This document shows positions 2,084-60,429 of a stretch of 64,000 bases of DNA, piece after piece. Within the stretch, counting starts at the first letter, position 1; each line of letters begins with the position of its first letter. The stretch spans positions 186,001-250,000 of the forward strand of contig BGKB01000056.1 of the NCBI GenBank assembly GCA_003116975.1. The letters are read 5' to 3'. Source of the DNA: Aurantiochytrium sp. KH105. Lineage: Eukaryota; Sar; Bigyra; Thraustochytrida; Thraustochytriidae. A program made the translations under genes and the position numbers. The notes under the pieces were generated by a model. The model saw nothing but the letters and a program-made list of their open reading frames with translations, made no database searches and was not told the origin of the DNA.

Positions 2084-3208
2084 ATGTTTCACTCATGGCC
2101 CGCCGAGTCGTCGACGGAGCGACAAGCTGCTCTGCGTCTCGAAGCCAAAAAGAGCGCCAAGGAGGATCGCCGCACGCGCTTCCTTGCATCCAAGCAGCGC
2201 GCTATCGGCATTGACGTGCACGGCCTCGACCAGCAGCTCGAGGATAAACGCAGACGCGAAGAGGACGAACGCCTTGCCAAGGCCGAAGAAGATGAACAAA
2301 CCATCAAGATCGCCAACGCGCTCAAGGCAGCTGCCGCCGCCGAAGAGGCCGCGCGACGCGAGCACAGACACGGCCTTCAGGAGTACTGGACGCTGCAGCA
2401 CAGAAACCGCATGCGCAGACCCGAGGCGGACCTCAACGATCCCCGCATGCTCCAAAAGGACCGCGTTCCTACCATCGAGACCGTGGGCACAAGCGCAGCT
2501 CAATTCTTCGAAGGCGACAAGGAGCTTGTTGAACGCGCCGAGCTCGAGGAGAAAATGAGGGAGCAGCACGCCCTCATTGACGACAAGGTTGCAGACAACA
2601 AGCGTCTGCTCGACCTTGAGGCCCAAGAGGAAGCCATTCATGCCCAGATCGTGAGGGAGCAAGTTCGTCTGCGTACCCAGGCCGAGGCTGAAGACGCTCG
2701 CAACCGCCGTGAGCACAACCTTGAAGTCAGGCGCACCAACGAGCGACTCGATGCTCTCCGCAAGGAACAGGCTCGCTTGCTACGTGAATCCGACGAAGAG
2801 CGCGCCAAGCTCGAACACATGACAATTCGCGCGTCCATGCATCTTCGAGAGGACCGACGTGAGCGCAGTGACGGTCGAGGTGGCGTGCGTCAAGAGTGGA
2901 AAGGTATGACGCCAGCTCAACTTGCCGACGTCAAAAACGAGCTTGATCGTCAAGCCGCAGAAAATGCTGACTTGCGAGCCGCCGAAGCCAAGGAGGAATG
3001 TGAGCTCGATGAGTCCATTGAGCGCATGCGTCAACTCGCCGTAAGAGAACAGCACAGGCGCGAGCAAGAGTATCGCGACGATGCAGTCCGCAGGAGACAG
3101 TTTCAGGAGTCTCAAAAGGCCTTTTACGATTCGCGACAAAAGGAGCAAAAAGATTACGATTCCGAGGTCCAGCCTGAATGGTGGCCTTTCGGTCGTTCTG
3201 ACAGATAA
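2084..3208 (+). CDS. RIB43A-like (RIBC) ciliary microtubule protein
   Basis: 374 residues, almost entirely charged alpha-helical coiled coil with Glu/Arg/Lys/Gln heptads. The N-terminal part has the family layout: a short leader, a conserved IGIDVHGLDQQ-type segment near residues 43-53, then long helices, and a Trp-rich C-terminus (PEWWPFG). RIB43A/RIBC proteins are inner proteins of ciliary doublet microtubules that stabilise the protofilament ribbon, and they are found only in organisms with motile cilia. Length matches the usual 370-390 residues. The ATG at 2084 is the first in frame. It is intronless. The RIBC1/RIBC2 distinction cannot be made here. The family call rests on the recognised motif and coiled-coil layout. 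Confidence 0.8.
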   Translation: MFHSWPAESSTERQAALRLEAKKSAKEDRRTRFLASKQRAIGIDVHGLDQQLEDKRRREEDERLAKAEEDEQTIKIANALKAAAAAEEAARREHRHGLQEYWTLQHRNRMRRPEADLNDPRMLQKDRVPTIETVGTSAAQFFEGDKELVERAELEEKMREQHALIDDKVADNKRLLDLEAQEEAIHAQIVREQVRLRTQAEAEDARNRREHNLEVRRTNERLDALRKEQARLLRESDEERAKLEHMTIRASMHLREDRRERSDGRGGVRQEWKGMTPAQLADVKNELDRQAAENADLRAAEAKEECELDESIERMRQLAVREQHRREQEYRDDAVRRRQFQESQKAFYDSRQKEQKDYDSEVQPEWWPFGRSDR

Positions 3209-3487: not shown

Positions 3488-5437
3488 TCAAGCGCTTGTC
3501 GCAGTGAGTGCACCTGTTTGCGAAGGATGCGAAGGCCCCACTGCACCGGAGCTTTGTGACGGCGGAACGGCTCGGGATGGCGCCGTTGCGGACAAAGAAG
3601 AACTGTGCAGGCTTTTCGTCGTCGTCTTTACGGCGCGCGGCGCTCGGGCGTACTTGGCAATCCACGGGTGCGTGGGCACGTCCTTGAGCTGCATACGGTG
3701 ATCTGGGTTTTTGCGCAAGAGCGCGCGAATAAAGTCCTTGGCGTCGTCGGAAATGCCGTGCGATGGGAAACGCAAGTCAACGCGCTTAATGCGCTGGTAT
3801 GTCAGCGTCTCCGACTCCTCTTCAAAGGGCGGACTTCCAACGAGAAGCTCGTATGCGAGGACACCAAGGCTCCAGACGTCCACGCGAGCGTCGTGTTTCC
3901 TGCGCATGACCGCTTCAGGCGCCAGATAGTCAATGGTGCCGCAAAGAGTCTCGCGGCGCGTTTTGCTGTGAACCGACCAGCCAAAATCGGAAATGAGAAC
4001 TGTCCCGTTGTGACTGAGCAAAATATTCTCCGGTTTGAGGTCGCGGTGAATGACATTCTTCCCGTGACAGTAGCGCAGCGCGTCTGCAAGGTCACGAATG
4101 TACGTTGCAGCGCGTGGTTCCGGAAAACGTTTCTTCAGCTTGAGTTCCTTGTACAGTTCGCCGCGCGAGGCAAACTGCAAGACGAGAAAAATCCGTTTGT
4201 CATCGTGGAAGAACGTAAAGAGCCGAAGAATGTGCTTGTGTCGCAACTGCGACTGGATCTCGACTTCGCGACGCAGCTGATGCTCGACGCCGGCCTTTTC
4301 CAGCTGCGATTTTTGCAGGACCTTAATGGCGACCACAAAACCGCTCTTACGTTCGCGCGCAAGGTAGACGTTTCCAAACTTGCCCCTACCGAGTTTCCTG
4401 CCAATGTCAAAGTCTTGCAGTGACCACACACGCGTCTCCTCGTCCTCGTGACCTTCCTTTTCTTCGTCGCCCGTTGCCTGGTCTCGCAAGTCCTTGCGAA
4501 CCCCTTCATCATCACGATCGCCGTCTTCGTTCGCATCATCAAAGATGCTTTCGGGCTGTCCTTGCACAGTCGAACAGTTGGCCTTGTTTTGCAGCGAGCC
4601 AACTGTGGCACCTTGGCTCTCTTCTTGAGGCATGCATTCTTTGCCGTGATCCACGCGGCAGGTCAAGGGGGTCAGCATGCTTCCCCGGCGACGAATTGCT
4701 TGCGCAGCAGTCGTGGCGCGAGACGCTTGTTCAGCAATGTTGATGTTCTGGTTCTCATCTTGCTCGCTCGATTTTGTTACAGTTTTTGCCTTGGTCTCCA
4801 CACCAGGCACGGCCTCCTCCCAGATTTGGCCCACGGACTTGGCAGTTCGCTTTTTGCGCGGAACTTGCTCGGGAATCTCGTTGCGCACGAGCTTCGCATG
4901 TTTGCAATCTTCGCTTCCATGAGTGTTTGTAATGCGAGATTTACTATTGGCCATCAATCCTTGGCCTCCCGCCCTCGCGCGAAGGGCAGTTTTAGCCGTC
5001 TTCCATTCGTCCGATCCGGGTCTCGCTGACGATGCCAGGGTTTTTGTGTGCAAAGACTGCGAGGTCAAAGATGAAGATGAAGACGACGTCGACGACGACG
5101 ACAAGGACGACGACGACGACGAAGTCAGCCTCGGGTCATTGGTCGCCGGCGGTGCGATTTGGCGCTGCTTGCGCGGGACGCGCTTGGCGCCACCTCCGAG
5201 CTGCGTCTTCGCCTTGTCGCCGTGCGCGCGAGCAGACTTGGCGTCGAGCGCGCGTTGCAGGATCCCGCTGCGCGCCGTTTCTCCACCTTCGCTCGCCCAG
5301 AGGACGCCGAGCGAGGCCGGCGTCCTTGCCGACTCCCTGCGAGCGTCCGCGGGCCCGCTGTCCAGGACCTGTGCCGTCGTCGCTTGCGCCACGGACGGCG
5401 ACGGGGACCTCGGGGACGACGAGGACGAGAAGTCCAT
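3488..5437 (-). CDS. Aurora-family Ser/Thr kinase with long disordered N-terminus (copy 1)
   Basis: 649 residues. Residues 1-337 are low complexity (Ser/Arg/Lys/Glu, an Asp/Glu-rich stretch before the domain). The kinase domain runs from Trp338 to about residue 600. It shows the Gly loop GRGKFGNVY, the VAIK lysine, HRDLKPEN catalytic loop, DFGWS, and an activation segment TLCGTIDYLAPE. The DFGWS and TLCGT...DYL signatures are diagnostic for Aurora kinases, which drive spindle assembly, chromosome alignment and cytokinesis. The activation-loop Thr is kept, but the usual DYLPPEM is DYLAPEA. The tail after the domain is Ser/Thr-rich. It is the first of four adjacent Aurora genes and all catalytic residues are present, so it is probably active. 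Confidence 0.92.
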   Translation of the reverse strand: MDFSSSSSPRSPSPSVAQATTAQVLDSGPADARRESARTPASLGVLWASEGGETARSGILQRALDAKSARAHGDKAKTQLGGGAKRVPRKQRQIAPPATNDPRLTSSSSSSLSSSSTSSSSSSLTSQSLHTKTLASSARPGSDEWKTAKTALRARAGGQGLMANSKSRITNTHGSEDCKHAKLVRNEIPEQVPRKKRTAKSVGQIWEEAVPGVETKAKTVTKSSEQDENQNINIAEQASRATTAAQAIRRRGSMLTPLTCRVDHGKECMPQEESQGATVGSLQNKANCSTVQGQPESIFDDANEDGDRDDEGVRKDLRDQATGDEEKEGHEDEETRVWSLQDFDIGRKLGRGKFGNVYLARERKSGFVVAIKVLQKSQLEKAGVEHQLRREVEIQSQLRHKHILRLFTFFHDDKRIFLVLQFASRGELYKELKLKKRFPEPRAATYIRDLADALRYCHGKNVIHRDLKPENILLSHNGTVLISDFGWSVHSKTRRETLCGTIDYLAPEAVMRRKHDARVDVWSLGVLAYELLVGSPPFEEESETLTYQRIKRVDLRFPSHGISDDAKDFIRALLRKNPDHRMQLKDVPTHPWIAKYARAPRAVKTTTKSLHSSSLSATAPSRAVPPSQSSGAVGPSHPSQTGALTATSA

Positions 5438-6110
5438 CTCCCCGGACGCTCTCTTTCGCCTGCGCGCTCGCTGCGCCTCGCTTCGCTTCGCTCAAAGCGC
5501 GGCGAGGACCGGCCGCGTCCCTCCTGCGCGCCTCGGGGTCTTGCAGCGCAACCTCTCGCGCGCCGCGTCCCGGCGGGCGGTGGTGTGCAAGCTAAGCCGA
5601 GCTAGATAATCTAACCACGGGGCTCGTTGGAGTTTTGGCGTTGACGCGGTTGACTCACTCACTCACTCAAAGTCGAACATTGCAAACAACTCGAAGGCCC
5701 GGACCCAAACGTTTACTACCCAAACGTTTTCTACCCAAACGTCCGCCGTGTGTGATACTGGGAGAAAGGCTGGAGACGCGCATTGACAACGCCAGCGACG
5801 GCGGCGGCGGCGACGACGACGACGATGGTAACGTCAAGAATACACACGAACACCTCAAGGCTTCGTGCAACGCAGCGCAGCGGAGAGCATCAAAATTTCT
5901 TTCGTCAGGTAGGTAGGTAGGGCCTATACCTATTTCGTTTTCTTTCATGACACTGCAAGGGCTCGAGAGCACGTTCAACAGCCCATGCACGTCTGACGAC
6001 AAGAAGACAAGCAAAGGAAGAAGAAAAAAAAAAGGAGCCTGTTTGTGAATGTGTTTGTTTGCAAAAGAAAATGGAAGGTGGTATATGTATACGGGAGGAT
6101 GGATCCCCAG
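5438..6110. other. Intergenic region between Aurora copies 1 and 2
   Basis: About 670 bases. It should hold the promoter of copy 1 and the 3' end of copy 2, both on the minus strand. There is a short GAC/GGC run near 5800-5826 and imperfect repeats of an acccaaacgtttt-like unit at 5704-5744. No coding potential beyond composition was seen. Confidence 0.5.
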
Positions 6111-7178
6111 TCAAATGGGACCCACCTTGAGATGGATGCGCTCGATTTCGTCGGGCGGAGCGTGCATGATGATCCAGGGGTGGTAGAGAATCTTGTGAAT
6201 GGGCCACAAGCGCAACTCCGGGTCGGAAACGAGAATGGAGGACAAAAGGTTCTTTGCTTCGGGAGAAATGTCCTTGGGCATCTCGTAGTTGCACATGCTG
6301 ACGTTGGTACAAGTGTCGGTCTGGTCTGGCGCGACAAAGGGGGCGGTGCCGACAAGCATTTCGAAGAGCAAGACGCCCGTCATCCAAATGTCGGCGCGCT
6401 CGCTGTACGCCGTCTCTGCGACCATTTCCGGAGGAAGGTAGTCCACGGTTCCACAGAGTGTCTTGCGCTTGATTTCCTCCTTGGCGCGCGTTGAGTTGAC
6501 AGACCAACCAAAGTCAGCCAGCTTGATGGAGTTGTCGCGCGCCACAAGAATGTTTTCCGGCTTGATGTCGCGATGCACAACGCCAAGCTTGTGGCACTGA
6601 GTGAGCGCGCAAACGAGCTGGCGAATTACGGCCGACGCGCGTGGCTCTTCGAACCTTCCCGAGGGGGAATTCTTGAGCTCTTCGAAAAGCTCCCCACCCG
6701 GCACATACTCGAGAATCAGGTACACGCGCTCCTTGTCGTGAAAGTAAGAGTACAATCGAACCACATTTTTGTGCCGGAGTCGATGATGAATCTCAATCTC
6801 GCGTTTGAGCTGATGCATGAGATCCGAGTTTTCAATCTCCTCCTTGAAGAGAACTTTCAATGCCACGACGCGCTTTTCTTTCTTGGTGCGCGCCAGGTAT
6901 ACATTCCCAAACTTGCCTTTGCCGAGACCGCGGCCCACCTCAAAGTCGTTCAAACACCATCTCTTGCCGCCGCTGCTGCCAGGGCCGCCTTGGCTTCCAG
7001 ATCCGCCCAGGAGACCACGCTTGACGTGCTCTGGGATGTTGCTGCTTTGCTGCAGGTTCTTTTCCAGGATACTCATGGTGGTCTTGCCGCTGAGCACGTC
7101 GCTGTTGCTGCCTCGTCGGGCATTTCCCGTGGCCATTTCATTCTCGCACCCTGCGGCAGCGTCGCCATCGCGCTCCAT
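6111..7178 (-). CDS. Aurora-family Ser/Thr kinase (copy 2)
   Basis: 355 residues. A 73-residue Gly/Ser-rich N-terminus precedes a kinase domain from Trp74 to about residue 340. Visible motifs are [26 protein letters not shown] and KTLCGTVDYLPPEM, the last with the Aurora activation-loop Thr. It has small insertions compared with its neighbours: extra residues after the hinge region (NSPSGRFEEPR) and in the activation loop (RAKEEIKRK). In the C-lobe it reads ADIWMTGV where the other copies have VDVWSLGV or VDNWSLGV. It is the most divergent of the four. It is head-to-head with copy 3, separated by about 850 bases. Confidence 0.92.
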   Translation of the reverse strand: MERDGDAAAGCENEMATGNARRGSNSDVLSGKTTMSILEKNLQQSSNIPEHVKRGLLGGSGSQGGPGSSGGKRWCLNDFEVGRGLGKGKFGNVYLARTKKEKRVVALKVLFKEEIENSDLMHQLKREIEIHHRLRHKNVVRLYSYFHDKERVYLILEYVPGGELFEELKNSPSGRFEEPRASAVIRQLVCALTQCHKLGVVHRDIKPENILVARDNSIKLADFGWSVNSTRAKEEIKRKTLCGTVDYLPPEMVAETAYSERADIWMTGVLLFEMLVGTAPFVAPDQTDTCTNVSMCNYEMPKDISPEAKNLLSSILVSDPELRLWPIHKILYHPWIIMHAPPDEIERIHLKVGPI

Positions 7179-8030
7179 CCTGGCTTAGACTCTTGGTGTA
7201 GACGTAAACAAGATCGGGGAAAGACCCAATGGCTGCGTCTCGGTCGACTTTGCGTGAGCAAGCTTTCGCGCAACGGGCAGGTGCGGGACAGCGTTTGTTG
7301 TTATTGTGCGCGAACCTCGTCGCGAAGTCCGATTCTCCGGGCAGGCTATCTCCTCGTTCCCTGCGGACCACGCGATCCCCGCGAGCACGCACGCACGTAC
7401 GCACGCACGTACGCACGCGCTTGCTCTCGCCTCGGCCTCTTGCGGCTCGCCTGTCTGGCGAAACCACACGCGCGCGCGTACGTAGAAGCAGCGTCTTCGT
7501 TCGCGAGTCCCAGCGCGCGCGAGGTCGTCGCTGCAGCCTCGATTTCGCTCAGGCCCGCGAGCAGCAAGTCCAGCGGCTCTTTTCGCGGCGAAGCTACGCC
7601 GGCCGCGCCTTCCGCAAAACGACCAGGCTCCCGCGCTCCCCGGCCCGTCGATGGGCCCCTCGCCGCGACTGCAAAGCCCCCGCGCGGCCCCGTGCTCGAG
7701 GCTTGCGCACCACGTTTCGGGCTCTGACCCGGGCGCAACGGCGCGCTGCGGTGGCCCCGGTCCCGTACGCTGCGCACCCCTCCCGCCCCGCTTCCCCCCC
7801 CTTCTCCTCTCGCACCGGAACCGAGCACCTTTTGAGTGCGCAACCCGTTTTCGTCGGCGCCCTCGTGGTGCAAAGTAACAGACCTTGATCTGGCCTCCGC
7901 GCTCGCCGAGCGTGCCCAGACGCGCAGACCTTGGGCTCTCCGTTCGACCTCGCCGAGCCCAGGGCGGGCCAGAAGCGATCGGGTGCGCAAGCAGGCGCTC
8001 GAGCGAGAGGGCCGCGCGGACGTTGTGGAG
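7179..8030. promoter_or_regulatory. Divergent intergenic region, Aurora copies 2 and 3
   Basis: About 850 bases between two head-to-head start codons, so it must carry both promoters or one shared bidirectional promoter. It contains an (ACGC/ACGT)n tract at about 7385-7420. The forward frame of copy 3 is open upstream to a GTG at 7836, but the first ATG is at 8031. No core promoter element could be assigned by eye. Confidence 0.45.
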
Positions 8031-9573
8031 ATGGAGTGGTCGGCGAGGAAGAGCGCGAGGAAGCCGTCGCGAGCGGCTCTTGCGACCGTGTCGAGACCTC
8101 CGTCCTGGGGTCTGCAAACGGTTGCAGCTGCGACACAGCAACAGCAGGGCCACGGATACGAGCACGACCAGGCTCTTGATCGCCAGCAGCTCCAGCAGCA
8201 ACAGCAGCAGACGCAAACGCAAAAGACGCTAACATGGCGAAGTGGAACGAGGAGGCGGAAAGGCTCGCGCGGAGACGCTGATGCGCATCACGGCGGCCAA
8301 CACCATGGTGCAGATCCAGGTTCCTCTCTGCGACCTCGAAATGGATTGGACGATGATGATAAAGAGATGGACATGGATGACGACGACAACTACATGCTCG
8401 CTCGAGACGAGGATGACAACGAAGTCACCGGCAACGGCGGCCGTTTGAGACAATACGATGAAGCGGACAAGGAACAGTTCCAGCGTCAACCCCTGTCCAC
8501 ACCTATTCCCGCCCATCGCCTTGCCAAGGAGCGCGGCCCTCGAAGCGCGCTCAAGAGCGCAGAGGCAGCTCGCAAAAGGCTCCGAAGCACGCAGACCCCG
8601 GCATTAGGCCGGAACGGAAACGCAGTCGGTCGACGCGTCTCGACAGACTCCTCGTCCGTCAACGAGAGCGGTGGAGATCGGCGGTGGACGCTCGAAGACT
8701 TCGAAGTCGGCCGCCAGCTCGGAAGTGGCAAATTTGGCAATGTCTATCTTGCTCGCGAAAAACAAAGCAAGTATGTTGTCGCCCTCAAAGTTCTTGACAA
8801 GTCGCAGTTGCAGCGACAAGGCATAGAGCACCAGCTGCGAAGAGAAATTGAGATTCAACGCCAGTTACGCGACCACAACATTTTGCAACTCTACGGATAC
8901 TTTTTTGACGCGCGTCGCATTTATCTCATTCTCGAGTATGCGCCGGGAGGCCAGCTCTATGAGGCCCTCAAATCGGCCAAACGCTTCAGTGAAACGCAGG
9001 CCGCGAGTTATGTGCGTCAGCTGGCGCGCGCACTTGACCACTGCCACGAACGTAATGTCATTCATCGGGACCTCAAACCGGAAAACCTCCTGCTTGGCTC
9101 GGACAATGAAATTCGCGTGTGCGACTTTGGATGGTCTATCCATGCCCCAAGCTCCCGACGATCTACAATTTGTGGCACGGTACGTTTTCGCTGTCGTCGT
9201 CGTGTATAATGTTTTCTCTTTTTCTTGAGGGCTGACAGATGCATTGTATGCGTCAATTTTCGCTTTGAAACAACTGTAGCTTGATTATTTACCGCCCGAG
9301 ATGGTGGCCGGCGAAACGCACGATTCGCGCGTCGATAACTGGGGCCTCGGGGTGCTTGCCTATGAATTCCTCGTGGGCAAGCCGCCCTTTGAAGCGGCGA
9401 GCATGCAGCTGACATACAATCGCATTCTCAAAGGTGAACTCGATTTCCCTTCCGGAGTCTCGGAAGGAGCACGTGACCTCATTGCCAGACTTTTGCGCAA
9501 CGATCCCGCTCAGCGTCTCGACCTGAAAAGTGTTTTGCGGCACCCCTGGATTCTCGCGCATGCCCAAGCTTGA
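8031..9573 (+). CDS. Aurora-family Ser/Thr kinase, two exons (copy 3)
   Basis: Exon 1 is 8031-9179, the intron 9180-9279 (100 nt, donor GTACGT, acceptor CTGTAG), exon 2 9280-9573, giving 480 residues. The intron call is needed because the frame otherwise stops inside the activation loop; splicing restores [11 protein letters not shown] exactly. The N-terminus is about 218 residues of Gln-rich, Asp-rich and basic low complexity. The kinase domain starts at Trp219 with [26 protein letters not shown] and STICGT. All catalytic residues and the activation-loop Thr are kept. The domain closely resembles copies 1 and 4. Start chosen as the first ATG; the frame is open further upstream without one. 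Confidence 0.92.
9180..9279 (+). other. Intron of Aurora copy 3
   Basis: 100-nt GT-AG intron in phase 0, splitting the activation segment between CGT and LDY. It is the only intron in the four Aurora genes, so it was either gained here or lost in the others. Confidence 0.88.
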
Positions 9574-10035
9574 TCGACCTCTTGCATCGAGACGCACTAC
9601 ATTGGAAAACAAAGAGAAAGGCCAAAACAACGGGAGTCATTTCTCTGAGTATTTCACGAAGCAGGGGATGCAAATGAACTCTAAAAGATGACGCAGAGCG
9701 TCGATATGCCCCCTCGTTTTCCCCTGTGGCACTTGGTTTCTAAGATAAAAGAAAAATACCAATCATCCATCGCAACAACGTGCTGGCTTGGAGCAAGTGA
9801 TCCATCTATTTAACTCTGGAGCTGCTGCGCTCCGATGGGTGGTCCTCCAAAGTAGTTTCTAGACCTTTGTATTCCGGACTCGAAATAAAGTTCGCAATTA
9901 TGTTGTTGTTTTTGTTTTGTAATTTTTATATTTGCCAAAAAGTTCATTGCGCAATTTCGATGTTCGGTCTTTTGCAGCGCAAGGTGTGCTGAGGGCGAGG
10001 AACAAGCTTTAACTCCATCGACCAGCAGAAGCTGT
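9574..10035. other. Intergenic region between convergent Aurora copies 3 and 4
   Basis: About 460 bases, more AT-rich than its surroundings, holding the two 3' ends. T-rich stretches near 9898-9935 could serve as polyadenylation regions. No gene seen. Confidence 0.5.
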
Positions 10036-11253
10036 CTACCTTGTGCTGACCTGACTCGGATTGTAGTTGCTGTAAGACTTCTTCTCGACGGTGGGCACGT
10101 TCTTTTTAATCCATGTGTGGTTCGGCACCTCGGTGAGCGGCATCCGATCGTCGGGCTTCTTTTTCAGCAAGCGTGACACAAAGTCGCGCGCATCCTGAGA
10201 AAAGTGTGCAGGAAAGGTGTAGCGTACGGCAAGGATGAGTTGAAAGGTGGCCTCCTGGCCTTCGGTCTCAAATGGAGGCGTGCCGGCCATGAACTCGTAT
10301 GCAAGAACGCCAAGGCTCCAGTTGTCGACCTTGGCATCGTAAGATGAGCGCTCGACCATTTCTGGCGGCAAATAGTCGAGCGTACCACACATGGTGTCGC
10401 GACGGCTTGCAGAGTGTGTGGACCATCCAAAGTCGGCAATCTTAATCTCGTCATTGTGCGTGAGGAGAAGATTTTCGGGTTTGATGTCGCGATGAATGAC
10501 ATTTTTACTGTGGCAGTACGCAAGAGCGCAGGCGATTTGTTTAATGTACTGGGCGGCGCGGCGTTCACGAAAGCGGCCCTTGCGCTGGAGCTCCTTGTAC
10601 ACCTCGCCGCGGGCCACGTACTCGAGGACGAGATAGATGCGCCTCTCGTCATAAAAGTACGTGTACAGACGAAGGACGTTCTTGTGACGAAGGTGCGCCT
10701 GGATCTCGATCTCGCGCCGTAGCTGGTGCTCGACGTTGTTTTTCTTGAGCTGTTGTTTTTTCAAAACCTTGATGGCGACAATGTACTCTTGTTTTCGCTC
10801 GCGTGCGAGGTAGACGTTGCCAAACTTTCCACTACCAAGCTTGCGTCCGATATCAAAGTGGTTGAGCGTCCACCTCGAGCTGTCGGTCTCTTCAAAGGGG
10901 TCCACAGGCATGAGGCTCTCGCGCGGCTTCTTGCTGCGCACAGCGCGCTCGCTCGGGTCCTTGCTCTCGACTACGACGTCGCTGATGCTCTTATCGCCAC
11001 CGAGCTGGGGCTTGTTCTTGCCCAAGAGGCCACTCGTGTGATTGGCCGCTTTCGCGCCGGCGTGGTTTTGAGGAATGCGCATGGCGCCGCCCATTTTCGT
11101 CATGCGTTGCCGAGCCCCATCGCTATCCTTGTTGATGCCCGTGGCATTGCCGTTGCTGTTAGCGCTGCTGCTGCTGCTGCTGCTGGAACTGCTGCTACTG
11201 TAGTTGCTCCTATCATTCTCTTTGAGGCCGTTGCCCACGCCGCGAAAGTCCAT
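10036..11253 (-). CDS. Aurora-family Ser/Thr kinase (copy 4)
   Basis: 405 residues from the ATG at 11253; the frame is open slightly further but only from a GTG. The N-terminus carries a poly-Ser run (about residues 18-30) then basic low-complexity sequence. The kinase domain starts at Trp128 with [26 protein letters not shown] and [14 protein letters not shown]. It ends with the Aurora-type helix motif before HTWIKKN. It looks the most canonical of the four and is the best candidate for the ancestral Aurora. Transcribed on the minus strand toward copy 3. Confidence 0.93.
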
Positions 11254-11679: not shown

Positions 11680-12433
11680 TTGGAGCAGAACAATAATGTG
11701 CGGGTGGAGAGGATAGCACGCTTCTTAACGGCGAATGAACTGACTGCTCTTGACGATGTCATAGGACAGCCATACACGATCGACATGAGCGAAATTGCCG
11801 TGTGCAATGGGCGAGTGAAGACGATCTGCAAGGTTTGCGGCCATGTGACTCGAATGTGTCTTGCAGAAGACGGAAAAGGTAAGCCTATGCGCGAAAGGTG
11901 TTGCGACTGCGATCGCTTACCAGTGCCTCTGGATCAAGCACATGGCCAATGGTTACATTCTGCAGCATATGATGGACATGATTTCCATCGAACTTCTCGA
12001 AGTGTAAGAAGATCATTTCGCGAAAACTATTGGTTCAAAGTTGAAGAACTTGACTACCAAGCGCGAGATTGTTGAGCACCCATCCATGCAAAACACCTGC
12101 GTGGACACCATTCACAATACTATCCTATTCGAACAGCTCAAAATGGACAAAAATTTGTTCGGGAAAGTTTTGAGTTAATCGGAAACCATGCTCGTGCCAT
12201 TCTTTTACGTCTCTCCAGTTTGCGATTCAAGAGGAACGCATCGTCCTGACAGCTTTTCTGAACAGGATCTACACGTGGGTACGCTCCGAGTGGATCCGCG
12301 AGCACTTCGGGAAACGCAACATCAACAAGGCGGACGCGCGTTGCTTGGCTTCTGTTTCAGAGACCCTTGGCCTGTCGCATGCAATTTGCGGAATTTCCTT
12401 GTCCGCAGTCTGTCAGACGCTCCAAGCTGACGC
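11680..12433 (+). other. Unrecognised, probably spliced or decayed coding locus
   Basis: Several short open segments on the plus strand look protein-coding but lie in different frames. 11680-11890 holds a Cys pair (CKVCG). A second, around 11930-12003, reads as helical sequence. A third spans about 12040-12172. A fourth, about 12220-12433, contains WVRSEWIREHFG and stops at 12431-12433. Canonical-looking junctions exist, for example a GTAAGC donor near 11880 with a TTACCAG acceptor near 11924. I could not build a model that keeps phase throughout, and no ATG starts the first segment. It may be a real multi-exon gene with wrong boundaries here, or an old broken gene. No function is recognised. 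Confidence 0.35.
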
Positions 12434-12726
12434 CTGATTGATTGCGAACGAGAGAGGGAGCCCGACAAGGCACTTTGTTGTGCACGCACGCGCACGAGGG
12501 AGCCCGAGAAATAAATCGTGTCACGTGCGCAACGCGCTCGATTGGGTTAGCTCTCAAAGTGTGCACGCAGGTCGGGGCGGCCGTGGCCGGCAAAAGCAAA
12601 ACCAAATGCAGAGCGAGCAGACCCAGAACCCGGTCGGTGCGGTCGGGTGGCAAAAGGCACGGTGCCGAGGCCGCGCGAGCACGCGTGGGCGGGAGGCGGT
12701 AGATAGGAAGAAAGAAGAAGAACAAT
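12434..12726. other. Short upstream region of the nuclease/kinase-fold gene
   Basis: About 290 bases, presumed promoter and leader of the gene at 12727. No distinct feature was seen. Confidence 0.4.
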
Positions 12727-14655
12727 ATGGCTGCAAGCGGAGACACGCCGGCGTTCACGCTGTACGACGCGCTTGCTCGCACGCCCATGGCGCACTCCGC
12801 TTTCACAGACGAAGTCAGAATAGTGGCCGATCCAAACGAGGCCAGGGCAGATCGCGAAGATTTGAAGATGATGATGACTGTATCTGGTGCTGGGGGTAAA
12901 TTACGCGGCATTGAGCCCGGCAGGTTGGTTTTGTGGGATACCTTCGATGTCGATGTGGCCCCCGAGCCTACCGAGGCTGCCATCTTTGCAAGGCACATTT
13001 CTCCAGTTCGCTTCGAGACCGCGAGGCGGCGACCAATCCCTCTACGAACGAACGAAGAAGATGCACTCGATCTACTCAAATTCAATTTCATCTTTCGCTG
13101 CGAGTATGTGTTTGACAACCCGGACTTTGGCCTCGATGAGATGAGGGTGAAATTTCATTCTCAGCCTACGGAGAGAGGCGCGAGGCCTGACGCTCTGTGG
13201 TCAAGGTCTTTATATCCCGAAAATAGCGCGCCGTTGTCGCCGGACTTGTTTGGCACCCGACGCGGGGCAAGCGCAAGAAGCGCAAGAGTCATCTTGGCTC
13301 ATGAGCACAAGTCCCCTTTCAAGTTCCCTTACAAAGCAACGTTCGACGAGATGCTGAACGATGCGGTCGACTTTCTCGTTGATGAGGATCCACATTTCGA
13401 TGAGGACGAGGAATATTCTCAGCACGCCACGTGGATGATCGCCAACCGTCTGCATCATTACTACGCCGAACACGACCTCGTGGGCTTCTCTGAAAGTGTT
13501 GCCCGCGACTCCAGCATTCCGGCAGGTAGGAAACACGATCTCCTCTACCCGATTCGTCAGGTCTACGCATACATGTTGCGAACCTTTTGCCGCTTTGGCG
13601 TCCTCAGCACTACGAACATCACTTGGTTCCTGAAGTTAGAGCCGGACAACACCCTGAAAATCACCAAGGGTTACGACTGTACCGGCAACACCGAAGCTAC
13701 GAATCCAAAGTACGCCTACTTCCGACTTCTTCTCAAGGCTTCGAAAGGTTCTCGTCTGACATTGGACAGCACAATCCTCGATCGTCTGGGACGAAACGCA
13801 AACCTCAACGTCGCGGGGTCTCCGTGGAGAGAGGTTTTCGATCGGATTGTCGCAGCACGCGCCGGCACCGCATCTGGCTCTGGCGTAGGTGCAGGAGCAG
13901 GTGCAGGAGCAGGTGCCAGCGTAGGAGGGGCAACTACTACCCCCCACCGGGTCTCAGCGGGACAGCCAGGTAGTGTGGCAGCAGACGTGTCAGGTGGTGG
14001 TGATGCGGCGCCACCAGCACCATCCGATGGCGACGACGAAGCGCGGCTGAATTTTCTCCGCCAGACACTACCTCTGGACCAGTCTGTCTTCCCATACTAT
14101 GGGGGTATGAAGGATCTCCTCGGGGAGGATTTGGACGCGTACGGCCATCTCATGTCCGTCAAAACCGGGGGCCTGCAGCAGCTGATCGCTGTGAAAACGC
14201 CTGAGATTGACCCTTACCGTGAGCGAGACGACGAAACCGAACAAGAAGAGATGAGGCTTCTTCAAGCTTTCACGAACGAAATTGAGGTGTACGAGACTCT
14301 TCGACCGCTCTGGGGATCGCGGCACGTGCCTTGGTTTCTCTATGGAGGTCGCCACCTCTTTTCGGACTTTATTGTCGCAACAACGTGGGAGGGCCAGTCG
14401 CTGAAAAGTCACTTTAGGATACCCAGCCAATACACGAAGGCCGTAGTGGACAAGGCGCGGGAAACTCTTCTCATGGTGCATGGACTAGGTGTCGCTCTTC
14501 GCGTGGAGAATCCGGAAGACCTGGCCTCCACTTTCGTCATGGACGACCACGGGGAAGTTCGTCTGACTCGTTTCAGGAACGCCACCATTAAAGCAACGCC
14601 TGTCGAGCTTGCGCAAGACATTCAATATTTCAATGAGCACTTTATCCTAGAGTAG
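12727..14655 (+). CDS. PD-(D/E)XK nuclease-like and kinase-like-fold protein (Crinkler-type architecture)
   Basis: 642 residues, intronless. The N-terminal half fits the restriction-endonuclease fold: Pro154-Asp155 followed by Glu193-His194-Lys195 (PD...ExK). After it comes a segment of the form Q-YAYM-RFGVLSTT-TWF-LK (about residues 278-310), typical of this nuclease type in fungal and oomycete Crinkler-like and kinase-fused proteins. A Gly/Ala-Ser linker (about 380-430) leads to a C-terminal protein-kinase-like lobe with an IAVK-type strand and a YETLRPLWG helix. The kinase catalytic loop and metal-binding motif are not recognisable, so this lobe is probably a pseudokinase. Related proteins occur as nuclear effectors and as products of mobile genes; whether this one acts on DNA in the host nucleus is inference. 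Confidence 0.62.
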   Translation: MAASGDTPAFTLYDALARTPMAHSAFTDEVRIVADPNEARADREDLKMMMTVSGAGGKLRGIEPGRLVLWDTFDVDVAPEPTEAAIFARHISPVRFETARRRPIPLRTNEEDALDLLKFNFIFRCEYVFDNPDFGLDEMRVKFHSQPTERGARPDALWSRSLYPENSAPLSPDLFGTRRGASARSARVILAHEHKSPFKFPYKATFDEMLNDAVDFLVDEDPHFDEDEEYSQHATWMIANRLHHYYAEHDLVGFSESVARDSSIPAGRKHDLLYPIRQVYAYMLRTFCRFGVLSTTNITWFLKLEPDNTLKITKGYDCTGNTEATNPKYAYFRLLLKASKGSRLTLDSTILDRLGRNANLNVAGSPWREVFDRIVAARAGTASGSGVGAGAGAGAGASVGGATTTPHRVSAGQPGSVAADVSGGGDAAPPAPSDGDDEARLNFLRQTLPLDQSVFPYYGGMKDLLGEDLDAYGHLMSVKTGGLQQLIAVKTPEIDPYRERDDETEQEEMRLLQAFTNEIEVYETLRPLWGSRHVPWFLYGGRHLFSDFIVATTWEGQSLKSHFRIPSQYTKAVVDKARETLLMVHGLGVALRVENPEDLASTFVMDDHGEVRLTRFRNATIKATPVELAQDIQYFNEHFILE

Positions 14656-23863: not shown

Positions 23864-25756
23864 ATGTCCTCCGTTGGCGAAGAGCGCTCCTTGGCAGAAA
23901 CCTCGTGGCTCGCCGTGCCGAACCTAGCGGATGAAAGATCAGCCTTGGCGTGGAGTGCTCGAATGCTCGTAACATCCATCGAGGACACCTGTCCGCCTAA
24001 CGAGAGCAATGTAGCCATCGTACTCATCCTATACATTTGCTTTGGCATTGTATGGGTTTTCTATCTCATTGGCAAACGCATCGTGTCGAAGAAGGCACGT
24101 CAAGTGCCTGCGGCTGCCAAAAAGTATGAGAAGGAAACTGCAAGCCAAATGCTCACCAGCAACAAACTCTCTGCAAGCATCAAGGCGAAACGAGGCGGCA
24201 GTGAAGTTCAGGATCAAGCCACAAACATGGCCATCAAACGAATTCTCTTTCAGAAAATGAACAAAGGTTATGTCGATGACGACGACGAGGAAGACGAGGA
24301 CAACCTTGCAAAAGCAAAGCAGCTAAGGAAGTCCAAAAAGTATCGGAAGCAGAAGAAACCGAGGTTCGCCAGAAATTCCAAAGGAAGTACGCACTCCTCT
24401 TCGCACAATGGAGATGACGATGACGACGACGACGAGGGCTATATCGAGGAAGGGAACCTGAACAGCAAGAAACGAGTCGATCCAGGTCGCGAACCGTGGG
24501 AAACGGACGTGAAGAAAATCAAGTTTGATAAGCGAATAGGAGCTGGAAATTTTGGCGAAGTCTGGACAGGCACGTGGATGCATTCCAAGGTCGCCATCAA
24601 GACCGTGATTCGGGGCATGGCAGACAACAAAGTTTTTGTTGGCAAGTTTGTGGAGGAAATCCGACTCATGAGTGAGCTGCAGCACCCCAACATTGTCATG
24701 TTTCTTGGTGCGTGCATCCAGCCCCCTCACATCTGTCTCATTCTCGAATACTGCGTGCACGGGAATCTTGTCGAGTTTCTCCAGTCGGCGCGCGAGAAAG
24801 ACATTAACATCACGATGCACCTCATTCTAAAAATTGCTCTCGACATTGCACGAGGCATCAAATATCTTCACGACAAAATGAAAATTATTCAGCGCGATAT
24901 CAAGGGTCGCAACGTCCTCATTGATGAGAATCTCAATGGGAAAATATCAGATTTCGGGCTCTCCCGGATCAAGAACGAAGACGACGCAGGCCTTACGGCC
25001 TGTGGTACTCCTGCCTGGACCGCTCCCGAGGTGGTTCGCATGGAAGAGTATACTGAGAAAGTCGACGTCTATTCTTTTGCGGTCGTTCTCTGGGAGCTCA
25101 TCACCCAGAGCGAGCCGTACGAAGGCGAGGGCGGCATCCAGGTTGCCTATGCAGCGGCGGAGCAAGGTCTCAGACCGCCGATTCCCAAGTTCACCCCACC
25201 TCGATACAGCCGGCTTATGCAAGAGTGTTGGGCTGACTCGCCCCACGACCGTCCTCACTTCTCGGACATCCTTGAGCGTCTCTTCCAGATGATGAAGGAC
25301 GAAAGCAATCCATTCAAGGCTGCAGAGTTTTATTTTGGGACTAAACCGCAAAACTACGATCCGACCGAAATCGAACGCTTGCTTGACGACAACGAATTAT
25401 TTGCCGGTCTCTTTCACGAGGATTACTCGGCGATTGTTGAAGAGCGCAAGGAGCTTCGCCGTCAGGAACTCGAGCGATCGAACTCGCTCAAGAACAAGAG
25501 CGCTGATTCTGCGGTGGTCCTTCCGGCGTCGAACAAGGCGACAATGATGGGCTCTCTCATGCCACTCCATCTCAAAAAGCCAAGCACTGTCGAGCTCGAA
25601 ATCGAGCATATTGACAATAGCGAAGAGTCTGTCACCCCAGCGAAGAGCGACATCAAATTGATTGATGCAGACGTCGTCGAAGCACCAAGTCTCGACGAGA
25701 CGGAAGAGAAGGACACAATTGACACGACAGACACGGCAGAGGAGGGGAAAAGTTGA
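23864..25756 (+). CDS. Single-pass membrane TKL-type protein kinase
   Basis: 630 residues. A short N-terminal segment (1-48) is followed by one transmembrane helix (about 50-70, ending KRIVSKK), then a charged cytosolic linker with acidic runs. The kinase domain is at about 216-480: GAGNFGEVW, VAIK, then IIQRDIKGRNVL, DFGLS and GTPAWTAPEVV. GTPAW-APE and the RDIKGRN loop place it among tyrosine-kinase-like Ser/Thr kinases close to MAPKKK/Raf/DRK types. The catalytic-loop His is replaced: Gln343-Arg344-Asp345. The Arg and catalytic Asp are kept, so activity is still expected. The acidic Ser/Thr-rich C-terminal tail follows. Its small extracellular part has no recognisable ligand domain. Confidence 0.88.
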   Translation: MSSVGEERSLAETSWLAVPNLADERSALAWSARMLVTSIEDTCPPNESNVAIVLILYICFGIVWVFYLIGKRIVSKKARQVPAAAKKYEKETASQMLTSNKLSASIKAKRGGSEVQDQATNMAIKRILFQKMNKGYVDDDDEEDEDNLAKAKQLRKSKKYRKQKKPRFARNSKGSTHSSSHNGDDDDDDDEGYIEEGNLNSKKRVDPGREPWETDVKKIKFDKRIGAGNFGEVWTGTWMHSKVAIKTVIRGMADNKVFVGKFVEEIRLMSELQHPNIVMFLGACIQPPHICLILEYCVHGNLVEFLQSAREKDINITMHLILKIALDIARGIKYLHDKMKIIQRDIKGRNVLIDENLNGKISDFGLSRIKNEDDAGLTACGTPAWTAPEVVRMEEYTEKVDVYSFAVVLWELITQSEPYEGEGGIQVAYAAAEQGLRPPIPKFTPPRYSRLMQECWADSPHDRPHFSDILERLFQMMKDESNPFKAAEFYFGTKPQNYDPTEIERLLDDNELFAGLFHEDYSAIVEERKELRRQELERSNSLKNKSADSAVVLPASNKATMMGSLMPLHLKKPSTVELEIEHIDNSEESVTPAKSDIKLIDADVVEAPSLDETEEKDTIDTTDTAEEGKS

Positions 25757-31906: not shown

Positions 31907-33304
31907 TCAGTCTTCATCTGAGTCGGAAACGAGAAAAGGGGGCTGGTATCCCTGAATCTCCAAGATATTCCAGTCGACCCATGAGAAAAAGGGGTGATTT
32001 TGAAGTTCTGCGAGACCGGCGGCAAAGCCAAGACGGTGTCGGCGGTCTTTTTGTAAAAGGCAGCTTGTGAGATGGCAGACAGCGTCGGAAGCCTCTATGT
32101 CATTTGGGAATGCAATTGGCACAGTGCAAATGTCAACAGCACGAGCTTCGCGGTCTGGGTTAGTGAAGGGTACCTCGCCAAAGATCATCTCGTAGAGAAC
32201 GATTCCCAGACTCCACCAGTCGACCTCGAAGGAATGCAGCATGCGCATAATTTGCTCTGGGCTGGCGTAGTCGAGCGTTCCCGAGGAAGTCACGACGAGC
32301 CGCTTGCCTCTCTCGACGAACTGCAGGTCGTCGTCGGGCGACGCGTCAAGTATGCGGGAGGACACCCCGAAGTCGATGAGCCGTATGTGGCCATTCGCGG
32401 CGATGCAGACGTTTTCTGGCTTGAGATCACCATGCACAATGCCATGGGCGTGGACGTATTCCAACGCGACGGCGATTTCGGCGACGTAGAAGGCGATGTC
32501 AACCTCGGAGAGGTCTTGCTCGCGGATGAGCGTGAAGAGATCGCCGGCAGGGTAGAACTCGAGTCCGAAGCGGAGAGGCGCGTGTGGGCCTTGGTCGTTT
32601 ACGAAGAGAAGCTTGATGACAAAGGCCCCAGTGCTTTCCTCGCCGTCGCCGTTATTATTAGTGTTGTTGTTATTGTTGGAAGGATTCCCTCCCTCGAGAA
32701 TTTGGAGAGCTTCGAGTTCCCGGCGGGACTCTTCACGAGCTTGAGGAGTGTCTCTGAACTCTTTGATGACAATGTGGTCAGCGCCTTCGAAAGAGCTGGG
32801 CGCATGCGCGATGAAGATGCGCGCGTATGCGCCTTCTTGGAGGGTGTGGACCGTCCATCCGTCTGGAGTCTGGTTGTCGCCGTCGAGCCCTTCGCCAAAG
32901 GGCTCGGCGGAGTCCGTTGAGGGTGACAGTGCCTGCGCGATTTGGCCAGCGCTGTTCGCCGCCTCGGCTCCGCTCGGCGTGACGCTGTCGCCGTCGCCGC
33001 TCGCTCCGCTCCCTGCGTTGCTCAACTCCTGCTGGACTTGCTGCTGCTGGAGCTGGTCCTGAAGCGTCGAGGATAACGATTCCCCCTTGCGCAGCATTTC
33101 TTTCTCCGCGTTCTCCGCCGAGGCGCTCGCCGTCCCCCTCATCGCCATCGTCGTTGGCCTCGACGGAGCCAGCGCCGCCGCCGCCGACGACGACGCCGAC
33201 GTTGCCGACGAGAAGCACGCCGAAGCGCTCGCCTTGGCGGCGGTCGTCTCGTCCGCCTCGGCGCGCCTCTCGCCTTTGCTGCCGTCCGCCTCGGCGCGCG
33301 ACAT
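31907..33304 (-). CDS. AGC-like protein kinase with HGD catalytic loop
   Basis: 465 residues from the ATG at 33304; upstream frame lacks an ATG. Residues 1-150 are Ala/Ser/Glu low complexity. The kinase domain starts near 165. Its glycine loop is degraded (EGAYARIFIA). The VIK lysine is present, there is an Asn-rich insertion (SNNNNNTNNN) before the hinge, then IVHGDLKPEN with His291-Gly292-Asp293, DFGVS, SSGTLDYASPEQ and MLHSFEVDWWSLG. The HRD Arg is Gly here, making it a non-RD kinase. The DYASPE and HSFEVDWWS block is shared with the three kinases at 56.8-63.5 kb, so it is a distant member of the same family. Activity seems possible since Lys, catalytic Asp and DFG remain. Confidence 0.85.
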   Translation of the reverse strand: MSRAEADGSKGERRAEADETTAAKASASACFSSATSASSSAAAALAPSRPTTMAMRGTASASAENAEKEMLRKGESLSSTLQDQLQQQQVQQELSNAGSGASGDGDSVTPSGAEAANSAGQIAQALSPSTDSAEPFGEGLDGDNQTPDGWTVHTLQEGAYARIFIAHAPSSFEGADHIVIKEFRDTPQAREESRRELEALQILEGGNPSNNNNNTNNNGDGEESTGAFVIKLLFVNDQGPHAPLRFGLEFYPAGDLFTLIREQDLSEVDIAFYVAEIAVALEYVHAHGIVHGDLKPENVCIAANGHIRLIDFGVSSRILDASPDDDLQFVERGKRLVVTSSGTLDYASPEQIMRMLHSFEVDWWSLGIVLYEMIFGEVPFTNPDREARAVDICTVPIAFPNDIEASDAVCHLTSCLLQKDRRHRLGFAAGLAELQNHPFFSWVDWNILEIQGYQPPFLVSDSDED

Positions 33305-56820: not shown

Positions 56821-57795
56821 ATGGGGTCTGCGGCAGTCAAGCCGAGAGCATCTGACGAGGAGCAAAAGGCGTTAGCGACGCCGATCGTAACAAGCAGCTC
56901 GAAAGAAAGCCGTTCCTCGTCGAGAAGCTTCCGCTCAAAGGCAAGCTTGCGTGTCAAGGTCTTCAGAGAGATTTCAAGAGGAGCCTGCAGCAAACTTTTC
57001 GTTGGTGAAATCATTCAGACAGGCGAGACTGTTGCCCTCAAGACGTACATCCACTCCCCACGAGCCAGACGCGAACGCAATAACGAGATCCTGGTACTTC
57101 AATTGATCGAGTCGGCCTCCGACGTTTGTGAGTTTGTCGTAACACCCAAGCTCAAGGTTGAAAAACCTTTCATTGGTCTGGAATTTTGCGTGGCTGGTGA
57201 TCTGATGCGTCTTTTGCGAAGAGGACGCCCAGGTCTTGGGGAACTCCGGAGACTTGCGCACGAAATTGCAACGGGCTTGGCTTTTCTCCACCAAAACAAC
57301 ATTGTGCACGAAGACCTCAAACCAGAAAATATTGGGCTCACCGCCGATTTCCATGTTCGCATCCTCGACTTTGGCCTCTCCGTCATTGCCGAGACAGCGT
57401 TGACACATTCGAATCTTTCGGATCACTCAGAGGCGACGCAGTCGCGCATTCTTTGTAGGCATGGCACTGCGCCGTATGCGAGTCCTGAGAAACTTATGGG
57501 CGAGTTGCACAGCTTTGAGGTTGATTGGTGGAGTTTTGGTGTCACTTGCTTTGAGATGGCGTACGGGATGCTGCCGTGGTGGTCCCAGGATGAGCTCGAG
57601 CTTTGCGAAAGAATATGCATGGAGCCTCTTCTTATTCCGCATTCACCTCTTCCGCACGAAGAAACGCCTGAAGTGGACCGTTTCGTGCACGATCTCATTG
57701 GTAGCAAGCTCCCGAAGGAGCGTCTCGGTTTCGTTGGAGGCGCGAATGAGGTTTTAACTCATCCTTTTTTTGCGAAGGGAATTTTTAAAAATTAA
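56821..57795 (+). CDS. MGSA-family AGC-like kinase with HED catalytic loop (copy 1)
   Basis: 324 residues, intronless. It starts MGSAAVKP: Gly2 and a small residue at position 3 with Ala/Ser nearby are compatible with N-myristoylation. The kinase domain runs from about residue 46. The Gly loop is degenerate (ISRGACSKLFVG). ALK lysine, HEDLKPENIG with His163-Glu164-Asp165, DFGLS, RHGTAPYASPEK, HSFEVDWWSFG and a C-lobe ending HPFF follow. Glu in place of the HRD Arg makes it a non-RD kinase, so activation-loop phosphorylation probably does not switch it. The ending without an AGC hydrophobic tail is unusual. Paralogues are at 59446 and 62527. Confidence 0.88.
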   Translation: MGSAAVKPRASDEEQKALATPIVTSSSKESRSSSRSFRSKASLRVKVFREISRGACSKLFVGEIIQTGETVALKTYIHSPRARRERNNEILVLQLIESASDVCEFVVTPKLKVEKPFIGLEFCVAGDLMRLLRRGRPGLGELRRLAHEIATGLAFLHQNNIVHEDLKPENIGLTADFHVRILDFGLSVIAETALTHSNLSDHSEATQSRILCRHGTAPYASPEKLMGELHSFEVDWWSFGVTCFEMAYGMLPWWSQDELELCERICMEPLLIPHSPLPHEETPEVDRFVHDLIGSKLPKERLGFVGGANEVLTHPFFAKGIFKN

Positions 57796-59445: not shown

Positions 59446-60429
59446 ATGGGGTCTGCCGTGGTCGTCCCTGTGCACAAGTTTGGAGACCGAGGCGGCAACA
59501 TCAAGGATTATTGCCCGTGTCGAAGTCTGAAATGCTTGCGCGAGCGTCGCAACTCATTCCGTGTTGGCAAAAAGCGCGTCGAAAGGTTGCAAGAGATCTC
59601 GTATGGAAGCGGCTGCAAAGTCTACAAGGCGCGATTCTATGGCAGCGAAGAGGTCTTCGCCCTCAAGATATATGACATGTCCGCGCGAAGAAGACGAGAA
59701 TGTAAGCGAGAGGTCAGTGTCCTTCAAAAGCTGGCAGCCTACCGAACAGAAATCGTCTTTGTTGTTCAACCTGTTTTCATCCACCATCCAAAGCTCATCG
59801 CCATTGAGTATTGCGCAGGAGGAGATCTTGCAGGCCTTCTCGCAGAACGAGTTCCAGAGCTTGAGGAATTGCGAGGATTTGCCTTCGAGATTGCGTGTGG
59901 CTTGAATTTCCTTCACTCTCGCATGATCATTCACGAGGATCTCAAGCCGGCGAACATCGGTCTGACTGCAGACCACCACATCCGCATTTTCGATTTCGGT
60001 CTGTCCGAAATACTCGACGAGCAGTCCGTTAGTTCGAGCAAGGATGCGGAGAAACCATGTTCGAAAGGCATGAACGAGGTAGTATCTAGACATGGCACAA
60101 CGCCGTATGCGTGTCCGGAGAAGCTACGCATGCTCCCGCATGGCTTTGAGGCGGACTGGTGGAGCTACGGAGTAGTCATGTACGAACTGCTCACAGGCCG
60201 CGTACCGTGGCTCGGCAAAACTGCCGAAGAAACGTGCAAAATGATCTGCGAAGACCCACTCTCAACGCCCGAGCCAATACGAATCGAGCTCGATCCGGAA
60301 GCACTTTGCTTCGTGCATGACCTCATCGGGAGTAAAGAGCCCCAGCACCGCCTTGGTTTCGGAGGGGTTCTCCGAGAGTTCGAGGTTCATCCATTTTTTC
60401 ATAACGCTGACTTTCGAGTTGTACTTTGA
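59446..60429 (+). CDS. MGSA-family AGC-like kinase with HED catalytic loop (copy 2)
   Basis: 327 residues, starting MGSAVVVP. The N-terminal leader carries a Cys pair (YCPCRSLKC) that could be palmitoylated next to a myristoylated Gly. The kinase domain begins near residue 46 with GSGCKVYKA, FALK, an acidic helix C, HEDLKPANIG with His163, DFGLSE, RHGTTPYACPEK and EADWWSYG. The APE motif reads CPE. It is visibly closest to copy 3, sharing the AGGDLA hinge region, RHGTTPYACPEKLR and VPWLG-type segments. Its activation loop carries a Ser/Lys-rich insert between DFG and RHGT. Confidence 0.9.
   Translation: MGSAVVVPVHKFGDRGGNIKDYCPCRSLKCLRERRNSFRVGKKRVERLQEISYGSGCKVYKARFYGSEEVFALKIYDMSARRRRECKREVSVLQKLAAYRTEIVFVVQPVFIHHPKLIAIEYCAGGDLAGLLAERVPELEELRGFAFEIACGLNFLHSRMIIHEDLKPANIGLTADHHIRIFDFGLSEILDEQSVSSSKDAEKPCSKGMNEVVSRHGTTPYACPEKLRMLPHGFEADWWSYGVVMYELLTGRVPWLGKTAEETCKMICEDPLSTPEPIRIELDPEALCFVHDLIGSKEPQHRLGFGGVLREFEVHPFFHNADFRVVL

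Follow-up and report, generated by a model that had tools for sequence, protein, structure and literature searches.

The window analysed here, a stretch of 64,000 nucleotides from Aurantiochytrium sp. KH105, holds at positions 3488–11253 four full-length Aurora-type kinase genes (W1 to W4) in the strand order minus, minus, plus, minus. A preliminary description of this DNA, made from the sequence alone, had reported four adjacent full-length Aurora genes, and its coordinates, activation-loop motifs and N-terminal lengths all proved right. To this picture we add that W3 is inverted and contains 1 intron, that the same cluster is present on a second haplotype contig, and that the genome encodes an unlinked fifth Aurora. 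The corresponding features are the following:

3488–5437, minus strand: W1, Aurora-type kinase of 649 aa, with an N-terminus of 336 aa, the kinase domain at residues 337–596 and a C-terminal tail of 53 aa
6111–7178, minus strand: W2, Aurora-type kinase of 355 aa with an N-terminus of 72 aa, the most divergent of W1 to W4
7179–8030: gap of 852 bp between the divergently oriented W2 and W3
8031–9179, plus strand: W3 exon 1, encoding the N-terminus of 217 aa and the kinase domain as far as the activation-loop CGT
9180–9279, plus strand: W3 intron of 100 bp, GT-AG, phase 0, inside the activation loop (CGT^LDY)
9280–9573, plus strand: W3 exon 2, encoding the remaining kinase C-lobe and bringing the W3 protein to a total of 480 aa
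10036–11253, minus strand: W4, Aurora-type kinase of 405 aa with an N-terminus of 126 aa
Contig C1:214405–215682 (= L025:1406–2683, minus strand): fifth Aurora of 425 aa, unlinked to the cluster, with an allele on contig C60

The intergenic gaps within the cluster measure 673, 852 and 462 bp. As the preliminary description had stated, no other gene was recognised between the copies: searches of the gaps revealed no Rfam family at the gathering threshold and no further kinase fragment, the open reading frames there not being checked singly. The gap between W2 and W3 presumably serves as a shared promoter region. The reading frame preceding the W3 start codon is not conserved across the two haplotypes; the W3 intron of the other haplotype is 99 bp long and likewise has GT-AG ends.

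All 4 genes match PF00069; in W3 the match is divided between the 2 exons, and in the other three it covers nearly the full length of the family. In phmmer searches against PDB, evaluated on the best 60 of about 2,600–2,800 matched sequences per query, these best matches were Auroras for W1, W2, W3 exon 1, W4 and the fifth copy. Those of W3 exon 1 were all Aurora A chains or fusions thereof, and those of W1, W2 and W4 comprised Aurora A together with B, in the case of W2 also C (matches labelled "kinase 6" or "kinase 12" carry former designations of Aurora A and B). Phylogenetic trees were built from 17 rows (the five copies, vertebrate Auroras and 7 other kinases from the same genome), with one variant to which three further sequences were added and another from which W2 was removed. 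All five copies group with the vertebrate Auroras, apart from the 7 other kinases, with a support of 100/98 in the 17-row tree; the same separation received 98/99 with the added sequences and 99/99 without W2.

The preliminary description also held that the catalytic residues and the activation-loop threonine are kept, and in our alignment the equivalents of the Gly-loop, Lys162, Glu181, HRD, DFG-W and Thr288 are indeed present in all 4 window copies, as well as in the fifth. The same five proteins carry DFGW and R/K-R-x-T-x-C-G-T ahead of DYLxPE, with the activation loops reading ETLCGT in W1, KTLCGT in W2, STICGT in W3 and DTMCGT in W4; the loop of W2 has extra residues. From these residues and from the selection described below, W1 to W4 are predicted to be catalytically active, each being switched on by phosphorylation of the activation-loop threonine. 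The kinase domain, DFG-W, the R/K-R-x-T-x-C-G-T loop and a variable N-terminal region are shared with vertebrate Aurora A, B and C, as is a C-terminal RxxL motif in W1, W3, W4 and the fifth copy. By contrast, the mammalian genes lie at separate chromosomal loci (excerpted text of PMC524484), whereas the four genes described here are adjacent, and in the trees none of our copies has a one-to-one orthologue among A, B and C. The fungal Aurora, Ipl1/Ark1, belongs to the same family and has the same activation loop, but is a single kinase in the excerpts of 2 papers (PMC10499817; PMC524484).

Copy number was assessed in the whole genome with W4 and W2 as queries, the best candidates being scored exon by exon, a procedure that a heavily split copy could escape. 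In the W4 search (104 matches), the five Aurora loci in the two haplotypes display at least 48% identity and other kinases at most 40%; the W2 search (32 matches) again ranks these ten loci first, by E-value as well as by identity (at least 42% versus at most 38%). Weighing against this separation, another kinase on contig C118 (36% identity) is level with the fifth Aurora by E-value in the W4 search, where only one piece of the fifth copy was aligned. Candidates on contigs C76 and C37 were rejected as further Auroras and read as a CaMK/CHK2-like and a MAPK-like kinase, and other kinases at 310–320 kb on the cluster contigs were likewise read as not Auroras. The kinase domain of the fifth Aurora is identical in protein sequence between the haplotypes and contains two inserts, one of about 34 and one of about 42 residues, which could be either in-frame introns or true inserts.

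With five genes, the genome exceeds the usual one to three Auroras, as the preliminary description had anticipated from the cluster. The ascidian Aurora, which has family and activation loop in common with our copies, is reportedly a single kinase. The lineages named in the excerpt of PMC10499817 have one, two or three Auroras, with three each in flowering plants, kinetoplastids and apicomplexans, in contrast to the five found here, four of which are clustered; what these lineages have in common with ours is a lineage-specific duplication and a likely division of place and partner. Searches of other sequence collections contributed nothing useful. Among the viral contigs, none of the 63 pattern matches was a relative and the Aurora-loop pattern yielded no match; in the genome-contig collection, the best 80 of 584 confirmed matches were bacterial by title, with 27–35% identity, and provided no useful Aurora; and in the phage collection (51 records), the 10 listed matches were all below 30% identity.

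The genome assembly comprises 76.0 Mb in 367 contigs, and because many kinases appear twice, on paired contigs, it is taken to hold two haplotypes, although a similar picture would be expected from a genome that is hybrid or duplicated. C27, the pair of the window contig, carries all four Aurora genes in the same order and on the same strands, the DNA identity between the haplotypes being 92–95% over the cluster and 89% further right. Across the four kinase domains, the haplotypes differ by 1 non-synonymous (approximately 2,400 sites) and 48 synonymous changes (approximately 738 sites), distributed as 0/11 in W1, 1/12 in W2, 0/15 in W3 and 0/10 in W4. Thus, each of the four catalytic domains is under strong purifying selection. 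The N-termini are more variable in 3 of the 4 genes, with ratios of non-synonymous to synonymous change (dN/dS) of 0.30 in W1, 0.38 in W3 and 0.30 in W4, the value for W2 being 0.06. An assembly error joining unlinked loci, which the preliminary description had named as one of two cases that would undo its reading, is very unlikely given that C27 carries the same cluster. More generally, an assembly artefact or a set of redundant, decaying duplicates is scarcely credible in view of the identical gene order on C27 and the purifying selection acting on all four copies, and pseudogenes and assembly collapse were rejected on the same 2 observations.

Judging from the 46–63% identity of the kinase domains within the cluster and from the saturation of synonymous differences (pS 0.70–0.75), the duplications are old. 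The preliminary description had proposed local duplication, a proposal that tight linkage makes likely, but the single clade expected from it does not emerge from the phylogeny. The only well-supported pairing among the cluster copies is that of W1 with W4 (97/96 in the 17-row tree, 98/95 without W2 and 86/85 with the three added sequences). W1 to W4 as one clade is neither rejected nor supported by the approximately unbiased (AU) test (p 0.136 in the 17-row tree and 0.423 with the added sequences), and a clade of W1, W3 and W4 obtained p values of 0.529 with the added sequences, where its fit slightly exceeds that of the unconstrained tree, and of 0.112 without W2.

The main argument for local duplication is that the four copies are linked within 8 kb, and we conclude from this linkage that the cluster probably arose by local duplication with one inversion. 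Several results weigh against a single origin. The AU p values are 0.079 for all five copies as one clade in the 17-row tree (0.323 with the added sequences) and 0.063 for the five without W2 in the tree lacking it; in the best trees W3 lies nearer to the vertebrate Auroras (17-row and without W2) and W2 is placed outside (17-row), both unsupported; and the branching order shifts again once the three further sequences are included. These splits of W3 and W2 from W1 and W4 would be expected if at least 2 ancient Aurora lineages had become or stayed linked, with only W1 and W4 being local duplicates, as would the 65% identity of W3 to human Aurora A (57–58% to W1 and W4) and the restriction of the intron and the opposite strand to W3. 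We nevertheless regard such an origin as doubtful: the separating branches in the 17-row tree are weak (56/20, 76/85 and 62/49), one clade is not rejected at the p values given above, and it is very unlikely that 4 of the 5 copies came to lie in one 8-kb stretch by chance, the haploid genome being approximately 38 Mb in size (inferred as half of 76 Mb). A published view given in the excerpt of PMC10499817, which assigns a single Aurora to the last eukaryotic common ancestor, also speaks against it.

The window contains a second tandem kinase array, made up of three related genes on the plus strand (56821–57795, 59446–60429 and 62527–63519) encoding proteins of 324–330 aa, with identities of 60% and 43% in the 2 pairs compared. 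All three begin with MGSA, a possible myristoylation start, and have HED rather than HRD in the catalytic loop; they are not Auroras. Tandem kinase duplication therefore does happen in this window. Inspection by eye of 132 kinase matches (best candidates) revealed no other 15-kb stretch holding three kinase genes. Further kinase-like matches in the window, at 24476–25240 (plus strand) and 31952–32563 (minus strand), are 24–33% identical to Auroras.

Aurora cofactors mostly attach to conserved catalytic-domain residues and not to the N-terminus, according to the excerpt of a review (PMC2806521), which also states that residue 198, Gly in human Aurora A and Asn in B, lets TPX2 distinguish A from B. 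At this position of Aurora A, W1 and W4 have Thr, W2 has Ser, and W3 and the fifth copy have Gly, with the Aurora B-type Asn being found in none of the five. Three positions of the ATP site differ between human Aurora A and B/C (excerpt of PMC524484); at these positions (215/217/220), W1 and W4 have Arg/Glu/Lys, matching B/C, and W2, W3 and the fifth copy fully match neither.

Scaffold genes were searched for exon by exon in the same genome, with 14 prokaryotic controls that gave no match for INCENP, BIR, TPX2 or Borealin and that do not serve as positive controls. INCENP is represented by one gene with a clear ARK-binding box, its 2 matches forming an allele pair (C129/C216), and TPX2 by one gene with PF12214 and PF06886, again an allele pair (C43/C193; 2 of 4 matches over the cut-off). 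The N-terminal stretch of this TPX2, WEFDCPQYTDF, resembles the known Aurora-binding motif. One clear Borealin-like gene was found (C1/C60; 2 of 6 matches over the cut-off). No BIR domain scored above the cut-off in the exon-by-exon profile search of the genome, with one match below it, and BORA was not found in the genome, a result of little weight given that no control genome matched either. Collectively, the scaffolds do not seem to be multiplied, the absences among them being weak. In the general pattern described in the excerpt of PMC10499817, one Aurora paralogue is bound to the chromosomal passenger complex and the others are polar or located elsewhere.

The N-termini of W1 to W4 (336, 72, 217 and 126 aa) are unrelated, in agreement with the preliminary description, which had put them at 70 to 340 residues; the best E-value among all five copies is 0.23. 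By composition, disorder-promoting residues account for 63–65% of the N-termini and 45–50% of the kinase domains. A C-terminal RxxL has been reported as a working Aurora destruction box (D-box) in vitro, and a KEN motif lies near the N-terminus (excerpt of PMC4716142). The RxxL motif is present in W1 (RMQL), W3 (RLDL), W4 (RMPL) and the fifth copy; W2 lacks KEN as well as an RxxL at the customary C-terminal position. Among the five copies, KEN occurs only in W4, at residue 11 of both alleles; shuffling the W4 N-terminus produces a KEN in 3.3% of cases, which makes the motif weak evidence.

We consider it fairly probable that these genes represent an old lineage-specific family of five Auroras, four of them in one 8-kb cluster, which divide their work by partner. 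We infer the division by partner because residue 198 and the ATP site differ by copy and the scaffold genes are single. By analogy with known Auroras, a partner would dock on the catalytic domain of each copy, and the four copies would most likely divide labour in this way. W3, with Gly198, would be the foremost candidate for a spindle-pole kinase bound by TPX2; the sisters W1 and W4, with Thr198 and the B-like Arg/Glu/Lys at the ATP site, would be candidates for the INCENP-bound chromosomal kinase; and W2, with Ser198 and no C-terminal D-box, may be derived and specialised. Degradation and localisation signals may be added by the disordered-looking N-termini, which is the least supported step; the diversified targeting that the preliminary description had suggested for the N-termini is a possibility only. 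Two points argue against such assignments: Gly198 is also found in the unlinked fifth copy and hence is not decisive for W3, and yeast Auroras carry Gly198 yet have Aurora B-like features (excerpt of PMC2806521).

A division by time or life stage, with copies used in vegetative mitosis, multinucleate growth or zoospore formation, driven by separate promoters and encoding largely exchangeable proteins, is possible but rather unlikely. The catalytic set is the same in all kinase domains, the neighbouring flagellar RIB43A gene fits a zoospore-forming organism, and separate promoters may be deduced from gene order alone, yet the proteins have diverged widely (46–63% identity) and the partner-site residues differ. 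A more speculative variant, which we hold to be improbable, starts from the contrast between the single scaffolds (INCENP and TPX2) and the expanded kinase: specificity would have shifted away from the choice of scaffold to the kinases themselves, by way of residue 198, degrons and disordered N-termini, and W2 might escape destruction at mitotic exit and act outside mitosis, for instance at zoospore basal bodies or flagella.

The RIB43A gene, encoding an axonemal microtubule protein (2084–3208, plus strand), directly adjoins the Aurora cluster. On its other side, approximately 1.2 kb of the window haplotype (12069–13267) are missing from C27, which takes away the start of the open frame 12727–14655; this frame matched no Pfam family at an E-value of 0.1. 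The 2 contigs carrying the Aurora cluster each contain a frame of approximately 5,700–5,800 codons with repeated ketosynthase-like matches (C27:303609–314666 and C56:295285–306354), which looks like a large polyketide synthase.

Two further observations concern the genome as a whole. PfaA, of the polyunsaturated fatty acid (PUFA)-synthase family, gave a strong match in separate pieces (best 930 bits versus a curated cut-off of 1010); 11 of the 14 controls also match, none of them over the cut-off, and the match fits a thraustochytrid without proving one. The mitochondrial contig C366 (L121–L123; 30,955 bases, of which 30,000 were examined, with masked stretches) carries COX1. Of its minus-strand open frames of at least 180 codons, the 17 without masked runs were examined for TTA. 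In 16 of them this codon is absent or occurs only near the frame ends, ahead of the probable start or close to the probable end (in one case from codon 330 of 361); in the seventeenth, of 184 codons, it is present from codon 127 onwards, a possible end of the gene. Among the 20 tRNAs found with ARAGORN, tRNA-Leu has only the anticodons CAA and TAG, none having TAA. TTA appears to read as a stop in this mitochondrion, which corresponds to NCBI table 23, the mitochondrial code of Thraustochytrium. This code supports a stramenopile host, and taken with the RIB43A gene beside the cluster it makes a flagellated labyrinthulomycete most likely.

Duplication of Auroras is a known recurrent event, whereas four linked copies with a fifth elsewhere appear to be new; none of the titles listed in our searches of the open-access literature concerns labyrinthulomycete Auroras. 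Engineered thraustochytrids have been described, so that tagging of the individual copies looks realistic. Five Auroras, four of them linked and long retained, beside a single INCENP and a single TPX2, would offer a natural system in which to test how a single kinase splits into polar, equatorial and other roles.

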